This document shows positions 1 to 7,490 of a stretch of DNA of 64,000 nt, one piece after another. The stretch covers positions 1-64,000 of the forward strand of contig NZ_PVTI01000004.1 of NCBI RefSeq assembly GCF_003002895.1. Reading direction: 5' to 3'. The first letter of the stretch is position 1. Every line of letters begins with the position of its first letter. Made by a program: the position numbers and the translations under genes. Under the pieces are notes generated by a model that had not been told where the DNA came from, did not search any database, and saw only the letters and a list, made by a program, of their open reading frames with translations. The stretch is from Knoellia remsis. Lineage in GTDB: Bacteria; Actinomycetota; Actinomycetes; Actinomycetales; Dermatophilaceae.

Positions 1-107
1 TGAGCGGCCGGCCGACACCCGGGAAGCGGGCGGCATACGCGCAGTGAGCGGCCGGCCGACACCCGGGAAGCGGGCGGCATACGCGCAGTGAGCGGACGGC
101 ATACGGA
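1..107. repeat. 44-bp tandem direct repeat, two full copies and a partial third
   Basis: Bases 1-44 and 45-88 are identical. A third copy starts at 89 with TGAGCGG and then jumps to the 3' part of the unit, ACGGCATACG. Each unit ends with the octamer CGGCATAC followed by GCGCAG. The array may continue to the left of the window. It lies directly upstream of the promoter of the murA-like gene. No protein is expected here. Confidence 0.9.
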
Positions 108-121
108 ATGCGCCGCGGAAC

Positions 122-149
122 TTGCGTTATCTCATATCTGACATACGCT
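122..149 (+). promoter_or_regulatory. promoter of the murA-like gene, probably leaderless
   Basis: A TTGCGT -35-like hexamer (122-127), a 16-nt spacer and a TACGCT -10-like hexamer (144-149) sit just before the ATG at 157, seven nt after the -10. No Shine-Dalgarno sequence is present. The spacing fits a transcript starting at or next to the ATG. The spacer is AT-rich for this genome. It could hold an operator for the HTH domain encoded downstream, but that is speculation. Confidence 0.55.
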
Positions 150-156
150 GTTCGGC

Positions 157-1692
157 ATGACTGAGTCCAGCTACCTCACCCGGATCGGGACCCTCATCAG
201 GGACGCGCGCCGCCACCAGGGCCTGACCCAGAACGAGCTCGCCGACAAGCTCGGCACGAGCCAGTCCGCCGTCGCCCGCATCGAGCAGGGCCGGCAGAAC
301 CTCAGCCTCGAGATGCTCGCCCGCGTGGGCGAAACCCTCGGCAGCGAGTTCGTCTCGCTCGGCCACAGCGGCCCGCAGCACCTGCGCATCGAGGGCGGCA
401 AGAAGCTCTCCGGCTCCATCCCCGTCAAGACGAGCAAGAACGCTGCCGTCGGCCTGCTCTGCGCCGCCCTGCTCAACAAGGGCCGCACGACCCTGCGCAA
501 CCTCGCGCGCATCGAGGAGGTCAACCGGATCATCGAGGTGCTCACGTCGATGGGCGTCAAGGTCCGCTGGCTCCCCGACAGCAGCGACCTCGAGATCATC
601 CCGCCGGCCGAGCTCGACCTCGCCGCGATCGACGTCGCGGCGGCGCGCCGCACGCGCACGGTGATCATGTTCCTCGGTCCGCTGCTGCACCAGTTCGACA
701 CGTTCTCCCTGCCGTATGCCGGTGGGTGTGACCTCGGCACGCGCACCGTCGAGCCGCACCTCACCGCGCTCAAGGCGTTCGGTCTCGACGTCACCGCGAC
801 GCACGGCTTCTACGAGGCCAAGGTCGACCGGACGGTCCACCCGGAGAAGGCCATCGTCCTCACCGAGCGCGGCGACACCGTCACCGAGAACGCGCTCTTC
901 GCGGCCGCCCTCAACCCCGGCACGACGATCATCCGCAACGCGTCGTCGAACTACATGGTCCAGGACGTCTGCTTCTTCCTGCAGGAGCTCGGCGTCGAGA
1001 TCGAGGGTGTCGGCACGACGACGCTCAAGGTCACCGGCCTCGAGTCGATCGACGTCGACGTGGAGTACGCCCCGAGCGAGGACCCGATCGAGGCGATGAG
1101 CCTCATCGCGGCTGCGGTCGTCACCGAGTCCTCGATCACCATCGAGCGGGCGCCGATCGAGTTCCTCGAGATCGAGATGGCGACCCTCGAGGGCATGGGC
1201 CTGCAGTACGAGCTGTCCGAGGAGTACCTCGCCAAGAACGGCCGCACGCGGCTCGCCGACATCACCATCCTCCCGAGCGACCTCACCGCGCCGATCGACA
1301 AGATCGCGCCGATGCCGTTCCCGGGGCTCAACATCGACAACCTGCCGTTCTTCGCGCTCATCGCGGCCTGCGCCGAGGGCACGACCATGATCCACGACTG
1401 GGTCTACGAGAACCGCGCGATCTACCTCACCGAGCTGACCAAGGTCGGCGGGACGGTGCAGCTGCTCGACCCGCACCGGGTCATGATCACCGGCAAGACG
1501 CCGAAGTGGCGCCCGGCCGAGGTCATGTGCCCGCCGGCGCTGCGTCCCGGTGTCGTCGTGCTGCTTGCCATGCTCGCGGCGAACGGCACGTCGGTGCTGC
1601 GCAACGTCTACGTCATCAACCGCGGCTACGAGGACCTCGCCGAGCGCCTCAACGCCCTGGGCGCGACGATCGAGATCTTCCGCGACATCTGA
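157..1692 (+). CDS. Xre-family HTH domain fused to a MurA-like enolpyruvyl transferase
   Basis: The protein has 511 aa, about 90 more than usual MurA (about 420). Residues 10-60 form an Xre/Cro-type helix-turn-helix (LTQNELADKLGTSQSAVARIE). From about residue 75 to the end it is an EPSP-synthase/MurA fold. K94-N95 in KTSKNAA match the MurA substrate-binding Lys-Asn. C191 in GGCDLGTR matches the PEP-binding, fosfomycin-target Cys. LRPG near the C-terminus keeps the conserved Arg. The loop normally FPTDxQ reads FPGLNIDNLP, so this site is altered. MurA enzymes start peptidoglycan synthesis by adding PEP to UDP-GlcNAc in the cytoplasm. Whether this one is the housekeeping enzyme or a DNA-binding paralogue cannot be decided here. 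The start is set by the -10 box seven nt upstream. Confidence 0.85.
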   Translation: MTESSYLTRIGTLIRDARRHQGLTQNELADKLGTSQSAVARIEQGRQNLSLEMLARVGETLGSEFVSLGHSGPQHLRIEGGKKLSGSIPVKTSKNAAVGLLCAALLNKGRTTLRNLARIEEVNRIIEVLTSMGVKVRWLPDSSDLEIIPPAELDLAAIDVAAARRTRTVIMFLGPLLHQFDTFSLPYAGGCDLGTRTVEPHLTALKAFGLDVTATHGFYEAKVDRTVHPEKAIVLTERGDTVTENALFAAALNPGTTIIRNASSNYMVQDVCFFLQELGVEIEGVGTTTLKVTGLESIDVDVEYAPSEDPIEAMSLIAAAVVTESSITIERAPIEFLEIEMATLEGMGLQYELSEEYLAKNGRTRLADITILPSDLTAPIDKIAPMPFPGLNIDNLPFFALIAACAEGTTMIHDWVYENRAIYLTELTKVGGTVQLLDPHRVMITGKTPKWRPAEVMCPPALRPGVVVLLAMLAANGTSVLRNVYVINRGYEDLAERLNALGATIEIFRDI

Positions 1693-1871
1693 GCCATCCC
1701 CTGCTGGGAGAGTCGTTCCTTGCTGGGTGAGCTGGCCCCTCGGCGCGTGAGTCGTCCCTTACTGGGTGAGCTGTCCCTCCCTGCATGAGTCGTCCCTTGA
1801 TAGAGGGACGAGTCAGCAGCAAAGGGACGAGTCAGCAGCGAAGGGGCGACTCGACAGCGCTGGGGGGCTCG
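1690..1871. repeat. 19-bp repeat array 1: six forward units, then inverted units
   Basis: Forward units start at 1691, 1710, 1729, 1749, 1768 and 1787, a 19-bp step with one of 20. They read GAG-TCGTCCCT (type A) or GAG-CTGTCCCT (type B), mostly alternating, then usually a CTGGGT-like end. After 1797 the units turn round: AGGGACGAGTC at 1804-1814, then inverted units anchored at 1833, 1852 and about 1870. The central pair 1787-1797/1804-1814 forms a hairpin with one mismatch. The first unit begins inside the TGA stop of the murA-like gene. This fills the 289-bp gap before the next gene; I see no coding potential. Confidence 0.85.
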
Positions 1872-1981
1872 CCAGCGCAGCAGCAGCGCACCGCTGGTCC
1901 AGCACCGCGACTCGTCCGGCACCGCGACGCGGCCTGTGGATGACGGCGCCGTCGCCGTCGCGAAAACTGTCACGATCGAGC

Positions 1982-2941
1982 ATGGCCACACAGCGACCCA
2001 CGCCGTTCGACCCGACGCTGCTGCGCGCGACGGCTGATCTGCGCCGTCTCGGCGAGGATCCCGGCGCGCGCGATGCCGACGGGGCGGCCACGTGGGCTCG
2101 AGTTCGCCATGGGGTCGTCGTCGGCGCGCCGGAGTGGAAGCGTTCGACGCCTGAGCAACGACACGCTGCCCTCGTCCACGCGACGGCCATGCACGTGCGT
2201 GGTGACACGATCCCGACGTTCTCACATGCCGCGGCGGCGGCGGTGTGGCGGCTCCCCCGGGTCTCCGCGTGGCCGGCGCGCGTCGACGTCCTGACCACGA
2301 AGGCCCGGCGTTCGTCGGACACGATGCGGCGCCACCTCGGCCAGCCCGGCATGGTCGAGACCGTCGACGGGCTACCTGTCACGTCGCTGACCCGCACGCT
2401 CATCGACATCGCGCGGACCGAGGACCTCAAGGACGCTGTCGCGGCGATGGACCATGCCCTCCATCACGCACTGTGCACGCGTGAGCAGCTGCGCGCCGAA
2501 CTGGACCTCGTCCCCGCCGGTGCTCGGGGCCGCGCCCAAGCCGAGCTGGCCGTCAGCCTCGCCGACCCGGGGGCGATGTCCGTGGGCGAGTCGCTCTCGA
2601 GGGTTCAGATGTTCCGGTTCAACCTGCCGCGCCCTCAGCTGCAGGTTCGGATCGAGGACGCCGACGGACTGGCTGGGGTGTGTGACTTCGGCTGGGTCGG
2701 GCTCGGGACCCTCGGCGAGTTCGACGGGCGCAAGAAGTACGGTCTGGATGGCTTGGAGGGCGACCGCGTTGCCGAGGTGATGTGGCGCGAGAAGAAGCGT
2801 GAGGACCGGATTCGGGCTCGCGGGCACCGGATGGCCCGATGGGTGTGGGCCGACGCTGCCGACGGCTCCCGGATGGTGCGCATCCTGGCCGCTCAGGGTG
2901 TGCGTCCCACGCGCAGGAACACATGGCTCGACGCCGCCTGA
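1982..2941 (+). CDS. AbiEi/DUF559-like protein with a PD-(D/E)XK-type motif, function unknown
   Basis: The protein has 319 aa and no signal peptide or membrane segment. An N-terminal part contains the SHAAAAAVWRLP stretch seen in actinobacterial AbiEi-like proteins. Residues 130-145 (GLPVTSLTRTLIDIAR) are also typical of that group. The C-terminal part has D235 in VCDFGW and E246-x-D248-x-x-K251 in GEFDGRKKY, matching the D...ExDGxxK layout of Vsr/DUF559 nuclease-fold proteins. The ATG at 1982 was chosen because the region further upstream is repeat array 1 and gives only low-complexity peptide. No partner toxin or antitoxin is next to it. The gene is framed on both sides by related 19-bp repeat arrays. 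Nuclease activity is inferred from the motif only. Confidence 0.6.
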   Translation: MATQRPTPFDPTLLRATADLRRLGEDPGARDADGAATWARVRHGVVVGAPEWKRSTPEQRHAALVHATAMHVRGDTIPTFSHAAAAAVWRLPRVSAWPARVDVLTTKARRSSDTMRRHLGQPGMVETVDGLPVTSLTRTLIDIARTEDLKDAVAAMDHALHHALCTREQLRAELDLVPAGARGRAQAELAVSLADPGAMSVGESLSRVQMFRFNLPRPQLQVRIEDADGLAGVCDFGWVGLGTLGEFDGRKKYGLDGLEGDRVAEVMWREKKREDRIRARGHRMARWVWADAADGSRMVRILAAQGVRPTRRNTWLDAA

Positions 2942-3000
2942 GCGAGGAGCCTGCCCAAGCACCCGCACGAGTCAACCGCGCGGCAGGCGCGAGCAGCAGC

Positions 3001-3219
3001 GAGTTGTCGCTCCCGGCACAAGTCGTCCCCCGGCTGCTGAGTTGCCCCTCCCTGCACGAGTCGTCCCCAGGCTGCTGAGTTGCCCCTCCCTGCACGAGTC
3101 GTCCCCTGGCTGCTCAGTCGTCCCTCCATGCAGGGACGACTCACCCAGAAAGGGACGAGTCACCACGGCAGGGGCAGCTCACCGCGACAGGGACAGCTCA
3201 CCACGACAGTGGCAGCTCA
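3001..3219. repeat. 19-bp repeat array 2: seven forward units, then five inverted units
   Basis: Forward units start at 3001, 3020, 3039, 3058, 3077, 3096 and 3115. Inverted units are anchored at 3142, 3161, 3180, 3199 and 3218. Both halves keep an exact 19-bp phase. Types alternate B-A-B-A-B-A-A, for example GAGTTGCCCCTCCCTGCAC and GAGTCGTCCCCAGGCTGCT, then A-A-B-B-B inverted. The centre is a perfect 10-bp hairpin: AGTCGTCCCT at 3116-3125 and AGGGACGACT at 3132-3141. The last inverted unit lies in the dxs stop codon (3217-3219). Bases 2942-3000 before it hold nothing recognisable. Confidence 0.9.
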
Positions 3220-5085
3220 GCGCAGGACGTCGAGCAGGCGCGCCGAGATCGCGTCCGGGGTGAGCCCCACCCGGTCGAGCACCTGGCCGCGCGAGCCATG
3301 GTCGAGGAAGTCGCGCGGCAGTCCGAAGAGGTCGACGGGTGCATGGATCCCGGTGTCGCACAACGCCCGTGACACATGCGTGCCCACGCCACCGGAGACC
3401 GAGTTGTCCTCCACGACCGCGACCCGACCGGCACTGCGGGCCAGCTCCACCACGGCGTCGGGCACCGGCAGCGCCCACACCGGGTCGACCACGCGCACCC
3501 GCAGCCCCTCGGCACCGAGCTTCTCGGCGACAGTGAGCGACGGCGCGACCATCGCACCGACGGCGACGAGCAGCAGGTCGACCTCCCCGTCGTCGGGCTC
3601 GGCGAGGATGTCGACGCCGTCGACGGTGCGCACGGCCTCGATGGCCTCACCGACCGAGCCCTTCGGGAAGCGGATCACCGTGGGCCCGTCCGACACGTCG
3701 ACCGCGGCGCGCAGCGCGACCGGGATCTGCTGACCGTCACGCGGCGCGGCGAGGCGCAGTCCGGGCACGATCCCGGCGATCGACATGTCCCACATGCCGT
3801 GGTGCGACGCGCCGTCGGGGCCGGTGATCCCCGACCGGTCCAGCACGAAGGTCACTCCCGCGCGATGCAGCGCACAGTCCATGAGGAGCTGGTCGAACGC
3901 CCGGTTGAGGAAGGTGGCATAGATCGCGACGACCGGATGCAGACCGGCATACGCCAACCCAGCAGCCATCGTCGTGGCGTGTTGCTCGGCGATGCCGACG
4001 TCGAAGGTGCGCTCCGGGAACCGCTCGCTGAAGGCCTCGAGTCCGACGGGGATCATCATCGCGGCGGTGATGGCGACGACGTCGTCGCGCTCCTCGCCGA
4101 TCTCGACGAGGGCGTCGCTGAACTCGTCGGTCCACGACCGGCCGGAGATCTCGAGCGGCAGGCCGGTCTCGGGGTTGATGACGCCGACGGCGTGGAACTG
4201 GTCCCCGACGTGGTTCATGGCGTGGTCGTAGCCGCGGCCCTTCTGGGTGATCGCGTGGACGAGCACCGGCCCGCCATAGGCCCGGGCACGCCGCAGCGCC
4301 GCCTCGAGCGCGGCCACGTCGTGGCCGTCGACCGGGCCGACGTACTTGAGCCCCAGGTCCTCGAAGAGCCCCTGCGGCGCGACGATGTCCTTGATGCCCT
4401 TCTTGACGCCGTGCAGCGTCTCGTACATCGCGCCGCCGACGACGGGCGTGCGGTTGAGGGTGTGCTTGCCCCAGTCGAGGAAGCGCTCGTAGCCGCGGGT
4501 CGTGCGCAGCGTCGCAAGGTGGTCGGCGAGGCCGCCGCGCGTCGGGGCGTAGGAGCGTTCGTTGTCGTTGACGATGATGACGAGCGGCAGGTCGCGCTCG
4601 GCCGCGATGTTGTTGATGGCCTCCCAGGCCATGCCACCGGTGAGGGCACCGTCGCCGATGACCGCGACGGTGTGCCGGTCCCGTTCCCCCGCGACGGCGC
4701 GCCCCGCGGCGATGCCGTGGGCCCAGGACAGTGAGCTCGACGCGTGCGAGCTCTCGACGATGTCGTGCTCGGACTCGGACCGGCTCGGGTAGCCGGACAG
4801 CCCTCCCTGGGTTCGCAGGCCGGAGAAGTCATGACGCCCGGTGAGCAGCTTGTGCACGTAGGACTGGTGGCCGGTGTCGAAGACGACGGCGTCACGCGGG
4901 CTGTCGAAGACGCGGTGGATCGCCATCGTCAGCTCGACGACGCCGAGGTTCGGGCCGAGGTGGCCACCGGTGCGCGACACCTCCTCGACGAGGAAGGTCC
5001 GGATCTCCTCGGCCAGCGTGTCCAGCTCGCCGCGGCTCAGCGCCTTGACGTCCTCGGGGCCCTGGATGCCCTCCAACACGCTCAC
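3217..5085 (-). CDS. dxs: 1-deoxy-D-xylulose-5-phosphate synthase
   Basis: DXS joins pyruvate and glyceraldehyde 3-phosphate into DXP, the first step of the MEP isoprenoid pathway and a supply for thiamine and pyridoxal. The 622-aa length is normal. The thiamine-diphosphate binding signature [16 protein letters not shown] is present, as is the N-terminal [20 protein letters not shown] segment typical of DXS. The second half carries the transketolase pyrimidine-binding and C-terminal domains. The GTG at 5085 is preceded by an AAAGG-like ribosome site. A TAGACT -10-like box lies about 40 nt upstream on the same strand. Its stop codon is overlapped by repeat array 2. Confidence 0.96.
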
Positions 5086-5203
5086 GCCATCAACCTTTCG
5101 TTCCCTCGGTGTGTCATCTGCTCGAGTCTAAGTGCCCGGTGCTGCGCCTGCGCGCACGCACGCGCGGCACACGGGCAGTCTTCACCTGCCCCACAGATCC
5201 CGA

Positions 5204-5659
5204 CTACAGACGCGGCACGAAGTGATGCCCCTGCATCGCCTCGAGCACCAGGCCGGCGGCGCGACGGGCCGCGAGCAGCCGCGCCCCCTCGGCCTCGAGT
5301 GCGGCGAGGGCGGCGGCGACGCCCTCCGGCTCGACGTGCTCGGCGAGGTCGACCCGCAGGCCTCGGTATGCCGTCCGCATCGCTCCCAGCTGCGCGTCGA
5401 GGTGGTGCGTGGTCACCCAGGCGAGGGCGACCGGATGCCGGCGCCACACGGCATACATGCGGTAGTCCGACGGGCAGTGGTCGAGGAGCCAGCCGACGGC
5501 GGGCACCTGCCAGCCGGTCGCCTGCGGGGGCGGCACCCGGTCCGGCCAGCCCGGCGGTCCCGGTCGCCGGGAGCCTCCCGGGGCGCCGGGGCTCGCCGCC
5601 CGGCGCAGGGGCGGCGGGCTCACCGGTGCGGCGCGGCGAGCCTCAGCCGATTCGTACAT
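5204..5659 (-). CDS. conserved actinobacterial protein of unknown function
   Basis: The protein has 151 aa. Its proline/arginine-rich N-terminus is followed by an ordered domain starting near QATGWQVPAVGWLLDHCPSDYR and ending in LVLEAMQGHHFVPRL. It has no signal peptide and no membrane segment. The family looks familiar from actinobacterial genomes but I cannot assign a function. The ATG at 5659 is chosen over upstream in-frame starts because TAGAAT lies exactly seven nt before it, a leaderless layout repeated elsewhere in the window. It is divergent from the sulfite reductase operon, and the two share a 130-bp promoter region. Confidence 0.7.
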   Translation of the reverse strand: MYESAEARRAAPVSPPPLRRAASPGAPGGSRRPGPPGWPDRVPPPQATGWQVPAVGWLLDHCPSDYRMYAVWRRHPVALAWVTTHHLDAQLGAMRTAYRGLRVDLAEHVEPEGVAAALAALEAEGARLLAARRAAGLVLEAMQGHHFVPRL

Positions 5660-5666
5660 GTGTTCG

Positions 5667-5739
5667 ATTCTAGGGCCACGGTCATAGGGGCGGTCACATC
5701 GTGGACCGCTCCACGATCGCCATAACCGCGACTTATGCT
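5667..5739. promoter_or_regulatory. divergent promoter region with a palindromic operator candidate
   Basis: On the minus strand TAGAAT (5667-5672) lies seven nt before the ATG of the hypothetical gene. On the plus strand TATGCT (5734-5739) is a -10 candidate for sir. Between them is a perfect palindrome, ATCGTGGA-CCGC-TCCACGAT (5698-5717), whose right half overlaps the -35 position of the sir promoter. This position suits a repressor or activator of sulfur assimilation. The regulator is not in the window. Confidence 0.5.
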
Positions 5740-5789
5740 TTCCATCAGCACAACCGCTGCATCCACTCCCCTGCCGAGAAAGCGAGCCC

Positions 5790-7490
5790 ATGACGACCGT
5801 CGCCCCGAACCGCGCCCTGAGACCACCTCGCACCGGGCGGTCCAACGGTCAGTGGGCGGTCGACGGGCGTGAGCCGCTCAACCACAACGAGACGTTCAAG
5901 GCGCACGACAACGGCCTCAACGTCCGTGAGCGGATCGAGACCGTCTACGCCCGCGAAGGGTTCGACGCCATCCCGAGTGACGACCTCCACGGCCGGTTCC
6001 GCTGGTGGGGCCTCTACACCCAGCGCAAGGCCGGGATCGACGGCGGCCGCACCGCGCAGCTCGAGCCGCACGAGCTCGAGGACAAGTACTTCATGATGCG
6101 GGTGCGCAGCGACGGCCAGGCGCTCAGCGCCGAGCAGCTGCGCGTCCTCGGCGACATCTCGACCGACTTCGCCCGCGGCAGCGCCGACATCAGCGACCGG
6201 CAGAACATCCAGTACCACTGGATCGCGATCGAGGACGTGCCCGAGATCTGGCGCCGGCTCGAGGCCGTCGGGCTGCAGACGACCGAGGCGTGTGGCGACA
6301 CCCCGCGCGGCTTCCTCGGCAGCCCGGTCGCCGGCATCGCCGCCGACGAGATCATCGACCCGACGCCGGTCATCCGCGAGATCACGACGCGCTGGCTCGG
6401 CGACCCCGAGCTGTCCAACCTGCCGCGCAAGTTCAAGACCGCGATCACCGGCCACCCGAGCCTCGACGTCGTCCACGAGATCAACGACGTCTCGCTCGTC
6501 GGCGTCGTCCACCCCGAGCTCGGCCCCGGCTTCGACCTCTGGGTCGGTGGCGGACTCTCGACCGCCCCTCGGCTCGCCGAGCGCATCGGCGTCTTCGTCT
6601 CCGAGGCCGACGCCCCCGACGTGTGGCACGGCGTCATCTCGATCTTCCGCGACTACGGCTTCCGCCGGATGCGGACCAAGGCGCGCCTGAAGTTCCTCCT
6701 CGCCGAGTGGGGGCCCGAGAAGTTCCGCGAGGTCCTCGAGACCGAGTACCTCGGCCGCGCCCTGCCCGACGGCCCGGCACCCCAGCCCGCGACCGGCCCC
6801 GGCGACCACGTCGGCGTCCACCGCCAGAAGGACGGCCGCTTCTATGTCGGTGCCGCCCCCACCGTCGGCCGCGTCGGCGGCGGCGTGCTCTCCGGGCTCG
6901 CCGACCTCGTCGAGCGGACCGGCTCCGACGCCGTCCGGCTCACCGCCCACCAGAAGCTCGTCGTCCTCGGCGTCCCCGAGGACCAGGTCGACACCCTCGT
7001 CGCGGGACTCGGCGAGCTCGGCCTCACGACGACGCCGAGCCCGTTCCGGCGCACGACGATGGCGTGCACCGGCATCGAGTTCTGCAAGCTCGCCATCGTC
7101 GACACCAAGGACACCGCCGTCGCCGTCATCGCCGAGCTCGAGGAGCGGCTCCGGGGCATCGAGCTCGACACCCCGATCTCGTTGCACGTCAACGGATGCC
7201 CGAACTCCTGCGCCCGCATCCAGACCGCCGACATCGGCCTCAAGGGGCTCATCACGACGACCGACGCCGGTGACCAGGTGCCCGGCTTCCAGGTGCACCT
7301 CGGCGGTGGCCTCGCCTCCCCCGAACGCGACGAGGCCGGTCTCGGCCGCACCGTGCGCGGGCTCAAGGTTCCCGCGGCCGACCTCGCCGACTACGTCGAG
7401 CGGCTCGTGCGTCGGTATGCCGCGCAGCGCACCTCCGCGGAGACGTTCGCCTCGTGGGCCCACCGCGTCGACGACGAGGAGCTGACATGA
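5790..7490 (+). CDS. sir: ferredoxin-dependent assimilatory sulfite reductase (NirA type)
   Basis: The enzyme reduces sulfite to sulfide with six electrons, using siroheme coupled to a [4Fe-4S] cluster. The protein has 566 aa. The cluster cysteines are C426 and C432 (CTGIEFC) and C470 and C474 (NGCPNSC), the CX5C...CX3C pattern. Y76 in WWGLYTQR and C168 in TTEACGD correspond to the Tyr-Cys pair that is covalently linked next to siroheme in mycobacterial NirA. It leads the operon sir-cysH-cysD-cysN-cobA/cysG, all overlapping. The sulfur neighbours favour sulfite over nitrite as substrate. The stop overlaps the cysH start (ATGA). Confidence 0.93.
   Translation: MTTVAPNRALRPPRTGRSNGQWAVDGREPLNHNETFKAHDNGLNVRERIETVYAREGFDAIPSDDLHGRFRWWGLYTQRKAGIDGGRTAQLEPHELEDKYFMMRVRSDGQALSAEQLRVLGDISTDFARGSADISDRQNIQYHWIAIEDVPEIWRRLEAVGLQTTEACGDTPRGFLGSPVAGIAADEIIDPTPVIREITTRWLGDPELSNLPRKFKTAITGHPSLDVVHEINDVSLVGVVHPELGPGFDLWVGGGLSTAPRLAERIGVFVSEADAPDVWHGVISIFRDYGFRRMRTKARLKFLLAEWGPEKFREVLETEYLGRALPDGPAPQPATGPGDHVGVHRQKDGRFYVGAAPTVGRVGGGVLSGLADLVERTGSDAVRLTAHQKLVVLGVPEDQVDTLVAGLGELGLTTTPSPFRRTTMACTGIEFCKLAIVDTKDTAVAVIAELEERLRGIELDTPISLHVNGCPNSCARIQTADIGLKGLITTTDAGDQVPGFQVHLGGGLASPERDEAGLGRTVRGLKVPAADLADYVERLVRRYAAQRTSAETFASWAHRVDDEELT

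Follow-up and report, generated by a model that had tools for sequence, protein, structure and literature searches.

BIMEs of enterobacteria are extragenic clusters of short repeated units. In the REP/RAYT systems, every RAYT gene is described as standing between two REPs, with which it coevolves, and the presence of a RAYT goes with REP abundance (PMC2817692). CGTC-type REPs, reported from Proteobacteria and four other phyla, have stems of 8-9 bp and a CGTC tag and, in the words of their description, 'apparently lack a dedicated transposase' (PMC3733652). For AbiEi antitoxins, binding to tandem inverted sites of 23 bp next to the antitoxin gene itself is reported (PMC7319586).

The locus analysed here shares with the REP/RAYT systems and the TIRYT 'TIRtrons', as those are described, a nuclease-type gene with palindromes on both sides (PMC2817692, PMC3733652) and, with REP/RAYT, extragenic dispersed copies where the gene is present and a protein and repeats that diverge together. 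With the CGTC-type REPs it shares dispersed palindromes without an adjoining RAYT (PMC3733652), and with the AbiE systems (S. agalactiae AbiEi, Rv2827c) an AbiEi-like region and, as reported for AbiEi, inverted sites beside the gene (PMC7319586). There are also differences. The REP/RAYT protein is a Y1 tyrosine transposase, whereas the protein here is AbiEi-like plus PD-(D/E)XK-type, the repeats are 19-bp phased units with a central dyad, and same-orientation pairs of flanks outnumber inverted ones. The two REP tetramers are unenriched, GTAG occurring anywhere in 9 of 61 matched elements and CGTC anywhere in 41 of 61, against a control mean of 48.7 for the latter. The elements exceed CGTC-type REPs in length, have no tag and go with a gene, and unlike BIMEs they combine a fixed 19-bp spacing with one central inversion and a tie to a nuclease-type gene. 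In contrast to AbiE, the gene in the window has no adjoining toxin gene, its product has a C-terminal nuclease-type region, and the sites lie on both sides of it as well as dispersed, with 19 rather than 23 bp. Because REP/RAYT and AbiE each fail a defining feature, we regard this as a kind of its own, though one that would work most like REP/RAYT. Searches of the open-access literature showed no description of such an association of repeat arrays with a nuclease-type gene.

The window, by which we mean the whole stretch of DNA analysed, is the first 64 kb of contig C4 in a 3.57-Mb genome. Arrays 1 and 2 within it are the flanking elements of a module that consists of a palindromic array, a nuclease-type gene and another palindromic array:

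157 to 1692, + strand: left neighbour, an ORF of the EPSP_synthase family, outside the module
1690 to 1872: array 1, left flank of the 319-aa gene, with six units on the + strand (1690-1804) and four on the - strand (1804-1872), the last degraded
1786 to 1815: central dyad of array 1, made of the inner + unit, a 6-nt loop and the inner - unit
1982 to 2941, + strand: the 319-aa gene, with an AbiEi-like region at about residues 38-200 and a PD-(D/E)XK-type C-terminus
3000 to 3219: array 2, right flank of the 319-aa gene, with seven 19-bp units on the + strand and five on the - strand
3217 to 5085, - strand: right neighbour, 1-deoxy-D-xylulose-5-phosphate synthase (dxs), outside the module

Array 1 is located between the EPSP_synthase-family ORF, which we take to be MurA-like, and the 319-aa ORF, and array 2 between the 319-aa ORF and the convergent dxs. 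The TGA stop codon of the upstream ORF is also the start of the first unit of array 1, just as the TGA stop of the convergent downstream ORF is the start of the outermost - unit of array 2. The EPSP_synthase-family ORF (157-1692) carries an HTH_3 helix-turn-helix at its N-terminus; upstream of it, at the contig start (1-100), lies a 44-bp tandem repeat of 2.3 copies with 98% matches.

A first-pass annotation had placed forward units of array 1 at 1691, 1710, 1729, 1749, 1768 and 1787 and inverted units from 1814, 1833 and 1852. These positions are borne out, with spacings of 19, 19, 20, 19 and 19 bp between the forward units and with a degraded fourth inverted unit at 1861-1872. The 19-bp unit reads TGA[G/C]TCG[T/C]CCC, followed by eight bases of weaker conservation. 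Its phase gives a lag-19 self-match score of 25.5 in array 1 and 31.5 in array 2, where the best dinucleotide shuffle of array 1 scored 9.0 and the best shuffle of array 2 scored 11.5 (0 of 1000 reaching the observed score in either case). As an inverted repeat, array 1 by itself is weak (15.0, equalled in 47 of 1000 shuffles), and array 2 scores 26.0 (0 of 1000). The predicted RNA fold of array 1, at -133 kcal/mol on the + strand and -111 on the - strand, is mostly the single nested hairpin that had been foreseen. Also upheld is the view that the array is phased and inverted at its centre, that it is not a simple tandem repeat or terminator, and that it matches no named family: an Rfam search of window positions 1-6000 at E up to 5 returned a single match, at 5214-5285, outside the arrays and far under the cut-off. 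Two further suggestions stood in part. Units of the GAGTCG and GAGCTG types can be seen to alternate in arrays 1 and 2, and no alternation is evident by eye in the other 14 arrays of the genome; a 38-bp period is the stronger one in array 2 (69.0 at lag 38 vs 31.5 at lag 19) but not in array 1 (14.0 vs 25.5). The 38-bp period is local. The unit recurs elsewhere in the genome, where 16 arrays have the same core, and the 19-bp phase is kept at homologous loci; the annotation had named the opposite of each as grounds for refutation and so withstands both. Its observation is confirmed and its interpretation partly supported. It could not show that the array has a partner on the far side of a nuclease-type gene, that this gene family has such flanks in other species too, or that the unit sequence is a dialect and the 19-bp phase the recurrent feature.

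Of 149 family genomes sampled, 76 encode homologs of the 319-aa protein at E up to 1e-20. The PADLOC AbiEi models match all 26 aligned members (E up to 0.5, best 2.7e-15), the window protein among them at E 2.4e-10, and Pfam AbiEi_1 gives weak matches in 3 of the 26; the RefSeq name of a distant homolog is 'type IV toxin-antitoxin system AbiEi family antitoxin domain-containing protein'. Towards the C-terminus, all of 70 homologs, the three with an in-frame stop among them, retain E203, D235, E246 and K252, and by their motif we take these residues to be a PD-(D/E)XK active site. DUF559 and REase_MTES_1575, both PD-(D/E)XK, share C-terminal residues with the family, with sub-threshold Pfam matches to one or the other in distant homologs only (7 of 9), one of which passes the AbiEi_4 cut-off. 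The window protein, in contrast, matches neither of these models, nor does any of the 26 aligned members at E up to 1, and searches of Pfam and NCBIfam as a whole left the window protein without a match. A profile search of the PDB returned only urethanase and kinase chains, at E 0.06 and above and none of them credible, and a single-sequence structure model had a mean pLDDT of 37, unusable for a fold search. No AbiEii (DUF1814) toxin gene adjoins the 319-aa gene in the window, where its neighbours are the EPSP_synthase-family ORF and dxs.

Besides the two arrays that flank the gene, the 16 of this genome comprise 14 dispersed ones, a count that leaves out C4:116723 and C17:21272, core matches with 2-3 mismatches. 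The spacing of the inner dyad is identical in all 16. The longest two are those around the 319-aa gene, with 6+4 units in array 1 and 7+5 in array 2, and a tolerant count gives the other fourteen 1 to 5 on each side. According to GC3-based gene calls, which were used here rather than annotation, a gene 3' end lies at most 130 bp from 15 of the 16 arrays, and 7 arrays lie between convergent genes. The neighbours identified include asparagine synthase, phosphofructokinase, an ABC transporter, a phosphate transporter, a short-chain dehydrogenase, a Glu/Leu/Phe/Val dehydrogenase, a MerR regulator and a beta-keto acid cleavage enzyme, among others; since they are unrelated, a special tie to one neighbouring gene is disfavoured. 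For none of the 14 dispersed arrays was a counterpart detected at the homologous place in congeners, though flanks cut at contig ends may hide some, and this dialect, which we call A, yielded 0-1 matches, at 2 mismatches, in each of eight congeners. On contigs C9 (L005 1814-2401) and C16 (L011 1980-2461) of the same genome, pairs of arrays 570-675 bp apart surround small ORFs, one of which carries DUF4262; a remnant of the nuclease-type gene was looked for between these pairs and none was detectable. Separately, 24 stretches of named genomes, mostly Streptomyces (L056-L079), have one exact core palindrome each, which suggests chance or a conserved single site.

The possibility that the arrays are unique to this species was rejected, as congeners have the same layout with another unit, seen at three loci first. 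Sixteen congener copies align gap-free over 76 columns as an outer unit ACCAGTCGGGG, an inner unit GTGACGAGTCGGGG and then the inverse, with 19 columns from one AGTCG to the next. A covariance model of this dialect B recovered at least 38 elements (strands merged) in 7 of 8 congeners and none in G121 or in the window's genome; scoring covered the 150 top first-look candidates of each genome, so that all dialect-B counts are lower bounds. Five congeners hold 10 flanking and 21 dispersed elements (G065 9, G135 9, G141 6, G092 4, G129 3), and in each of them two elements 1.06-1.10 kb apart enclose a homolog of the window gene. G111 has six elements, one of them with a 21-aa gene remnant (76% identity) beside it, and G017 has one weak match, without a gene in dialect B. 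The module site is conserved, between an sdhB-like iron-sulphur gene and a CAAX-protease-like gene, and is common to six congeners, five having modules with the gene and one, G111, the remnant beside an element. The homologs of G065 and G129 contain an in-frame stop each, despite which G065 is one of the two genomes richest in dialect B. In the window's genome the flanked homolog sits at another place, with the MurA-like gene on one side and dxs on the other, and its arrays have a dialect of their own. In G121, the site between the CAAX-protease-like gene and sdhB where congeners have the module is taken up by a lone long hairpin (L229) of different sequence, by eye an element of another dialect.

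The dispersed copies of dialect B behave differently from the gene site. As many as 17 of the 27 have no detected counterpart at the homologous place in another congener, four (two pairs) share both flanks and six (three pairs) share one, figures in which flanks cut at contig ends may hide some counterparts. This turnover of the dispersed copies stands beside a gene site that is stable. Across two dialects and 9 genomes, dispersed copies accompany the cognate gene, the exceptions being G017 with its one weak copy and G111 with its remnant. Among the 16 one-dialect congener copies, pairs with double changes number 12 against 9.9 ± 1.4, a value reached by 59 of 500 shuffles, and the covariation score is 0.140 against 0.122, reached by 38 of 500. 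Since the covariation is not clearly beyond shuffles, a symmetric DNA-binding site fits at least as well as an RNA. A stand-alone structured RNA is rejected or weakened by this result and by the lack of an Rfam match in the arrays.

The pairing of elements around the gene was assessed at 70 homolog loci by comparing the upstream 300 bp with the downstream flank, a score of 20 or more counting as a match. These loci, many of them related by descent, are 69 of the 73 hits with E <= 1.4e-49, to which L187, a weaker hit from the genome of the window, was added; the other four hits are G022:C3, at a contig end, and three that had already been found flanked, G092:C34, G129:C3 and G065:3470427. A matched palindrome stands on both sides at 61 of the 70 loci, in 40 of 45 genomes, with a median score of 34; the remaining 9 homologs score below 20. 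By comparison, matches were seen in 10 of 561 cross-genome pairs, in 0 of 32 pairs from different copies in one genome (best 19.5), and in 0 of 68 distal segment pairs of the same loci, which were not picked as intergenic and probably include much coding DNA; for shared intergenic repeats the 32 same-genome pairs are the better control. The matched stretch has a median of 73 bp; the median distance from the end of the upstream element to the matched gene part is 94 bp, and that from the stop to the start of the downstream element is 12 bp. The two members of a pair have the same orientation in 45 cases and are inverted in 16. Three of the 70 homologs have an in-frame stop, in addition to the G065 and G129 genes described above.

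Flanks were also matched between genomes, where 2383 locus pairs gave 100 matches at 20 or more: 0 of 743 pairs below 40% protein identity matched, and 15 of 15 at 70% or above. This trend is partly plain relatedness, and matches between the flanks of different species can stem from conserved neighbouring DNA, which also scores, as well as from the element. A downstream neighbour that by eye we take to be AIM24-like is found at loci of four species, namely G121, G092, G135 and the C9 copy of the window's genome. Three element dialects occur beside it, and hence both flanks can change together at one place.

The 19-bp phase extends over this wider set. A lag-19 score of 8 or more was reached by 71 of 140 flanks vs 5 of 138 distal segments, lag 19 was the best lag in 41 of the flanks vs 2 of the distal segments, and a second peak, at lag 38, appeared in 22 vs 3. 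The distal segments of this comparison, too, were taken irrespective of coding content and probably include much coding DNA. The phase is recurrent though not universal, about half of the flanks staying below a score of 8. Among 20 distant family homologs, sampled from weaker hits, 12 are flanked at score 20 or more and 8 fall below; of the 40 flank segments of these homologs, slightly longer than the segments of the main set, 15 attain a score of 8 at lag 19, and some of the elements resemble plain long hairpins. Two of the four hits in plasmid records were examined. The homolog of Tsukamurella tyrosinosolvens (NZ_LR134451.1) is flanked at a score of 55.5, its element occurring at 2 places in the record, which are the two flanks. 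That of Collinsella aerofaciens (NZ_OY725717.1) is flanked at 38, with 7 places in the record, of which a tolerant count puts six in the gene's own flanks, and its repeats have a spacing of about 80 bp instead of 19. The viral contigs of IMG/VR gave no confirmed relative, a result by which a viral origin is rejected or weakened.

Other repeats came to light as well. A second family, GGTATGCCG...CGGCATACC, lies near gene ends in several family genomes (L175, L179, L182, L189, L190, L191) and looks like ordinary terminators. The reversed-pattern control brought up a multi-copy single hairpin, CTGAGCGGGGCA..TGCCCCGCTCAG, at 16 places in G105, and a 27-bp tandem repeat of hairpin-like units, perhaps inside coding sequence, lies at L032 1477-1736 (G138).

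Several simpler accounts of the module can be considered. The gene might encode an AbiEi-type regulator that controls only itself, the upstream array being its operator and the downstream one a terminator or second operator, with no mobility involved. The PADLOC matches to 26 of 26 aligned members fit this account, as does an upstream element that ends a median of 94 bp before the matched gene part, and AbiEi and Rv2827c are reported to bind inverted repeats of 23 bp that lie upstream of the respective gene (PMC7319586). By itself, autoregulation would account for no more than the upstream array. What it does not predict is an equal element right after the stop codon (median 12 bp), nor the 14 further arrays, nearly all near the 3' ends of unrelated genes, nor the 27 dispersed congener copies, and it has no need of the invariant nuclease-type residues; we consider it unlikely as the whole explanation. 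The same AbiEi models, together with the RefSeq AbiEi-antitoxin name on a distant homolog, could also point to a defence or toxin-antitoxin function, in which an AbiE-like anti-phage gene would be accompanied by arrays that mark self DNA or tune dose. No AbiEii toxin gene lies beside the 319-aa gene in the window, and locus-specific dialects and dispersed copies go unexplained, which leaves a role in defence quite improbable.

The gene could also be a mere passenger of bidirectional terminators or 3'-end stabilisers that spread via ordinary recombination. The arrays are indeed placed as such elements would be, 15 of 16 at most 130 bp from a gene 3' end and 7 of 16 between convergent genes, and the predicted hairpins are very stable, but the covariation is not clearly beyond shuffles, and the flanks of one gene match far above controls while those of different copies in the same genome do not (0 of 32). 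Given that flanks match and change together, a pure terminator reading fails to explain them, and we give it little credence. A classical REP/BIME system mobilised by a RAYT (TnpA-REP) is described as having the same overall layout of flanking palindromes, dispersed copies and coevolution (PMC2817692), yet Y1_Tnp (PF01797) was matched in 0 of 9 congeneric genomes, compared with 5 of 14 control genomes, and the flanked gene is without a Y1_Tnp domain; such a system is hardly credible here.

The reading that we favour, to which we assign a probability of about 0.58, is that of a REP/RAYT-like system built on an unrelated nuclease-type protein, which would recognise and spread its own phased palindromes. 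Its observed features are the layout and its recurrence, the locus-specific dialects, the 19-bp phase, the dispersed copies in the dialect of the resident gene, and the invariant catalytic-type residues. Binding, cutting and movement are steps that we infer. The AbiEi-like part would bind the 19-bp units, one protomer per unit, the protomers of an arm stacking with one orientation and the stacks of the two arms facing each other at the central dyad. Nicking or cutting of the palindromes, or of the hairpin that they can extrude, may then fall to the PD-(D/E)XK-type part, and repair from another copy would bring the element to new places, while repair from the gene-bearing locus could carry the gene along. 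Decay of the gene would leave arrays without it, and dispersed copies would gather near gene 3' ends, where harm is presumably least. By analogy with the AbiEi antitoxins and their inverted sites, this division of labour, with the AbiEi-like part reading the units and the nuclease-type part acting on the bound palindrome, is likely. Counterpoints to the spreading model are the low copy number, 16 arrays at most, and that neither an empty-site pair nor a target duplication nor movement was seen.

A more far-reaching proposal is that a class of selfish or mobile DNA occurs across Actinomycetota whose phased palindromes are both read and propagated by a single AbiEi/PD-(D/E)XK-type protein with no known transposase, as an independent counterpart of REP/RAYT with co-diversifying dialects of protein and site; this remains tentative, its chances falling a little short of even. 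If the gene were only an AbiEi-type autoregulator with extended operators, the novelty would be smaller. The paired flanks provide many natural pairs of protein and site in varied dialects, a data set for how the DNA-binding region reads its site. If the reading of a self-spreading module is true, a family of dispersed repeats would be driven by a widespread gene whose present annotation is 'hypothetical protein' or AbiEi-type antitoxin, and a non-transposase nuclease would become a candidate for the kind of enzyme behind the CGTC-type REPs as described (PMC3733652). REP-like DNA would then have arisen at least twice, with unrelated enzymes.
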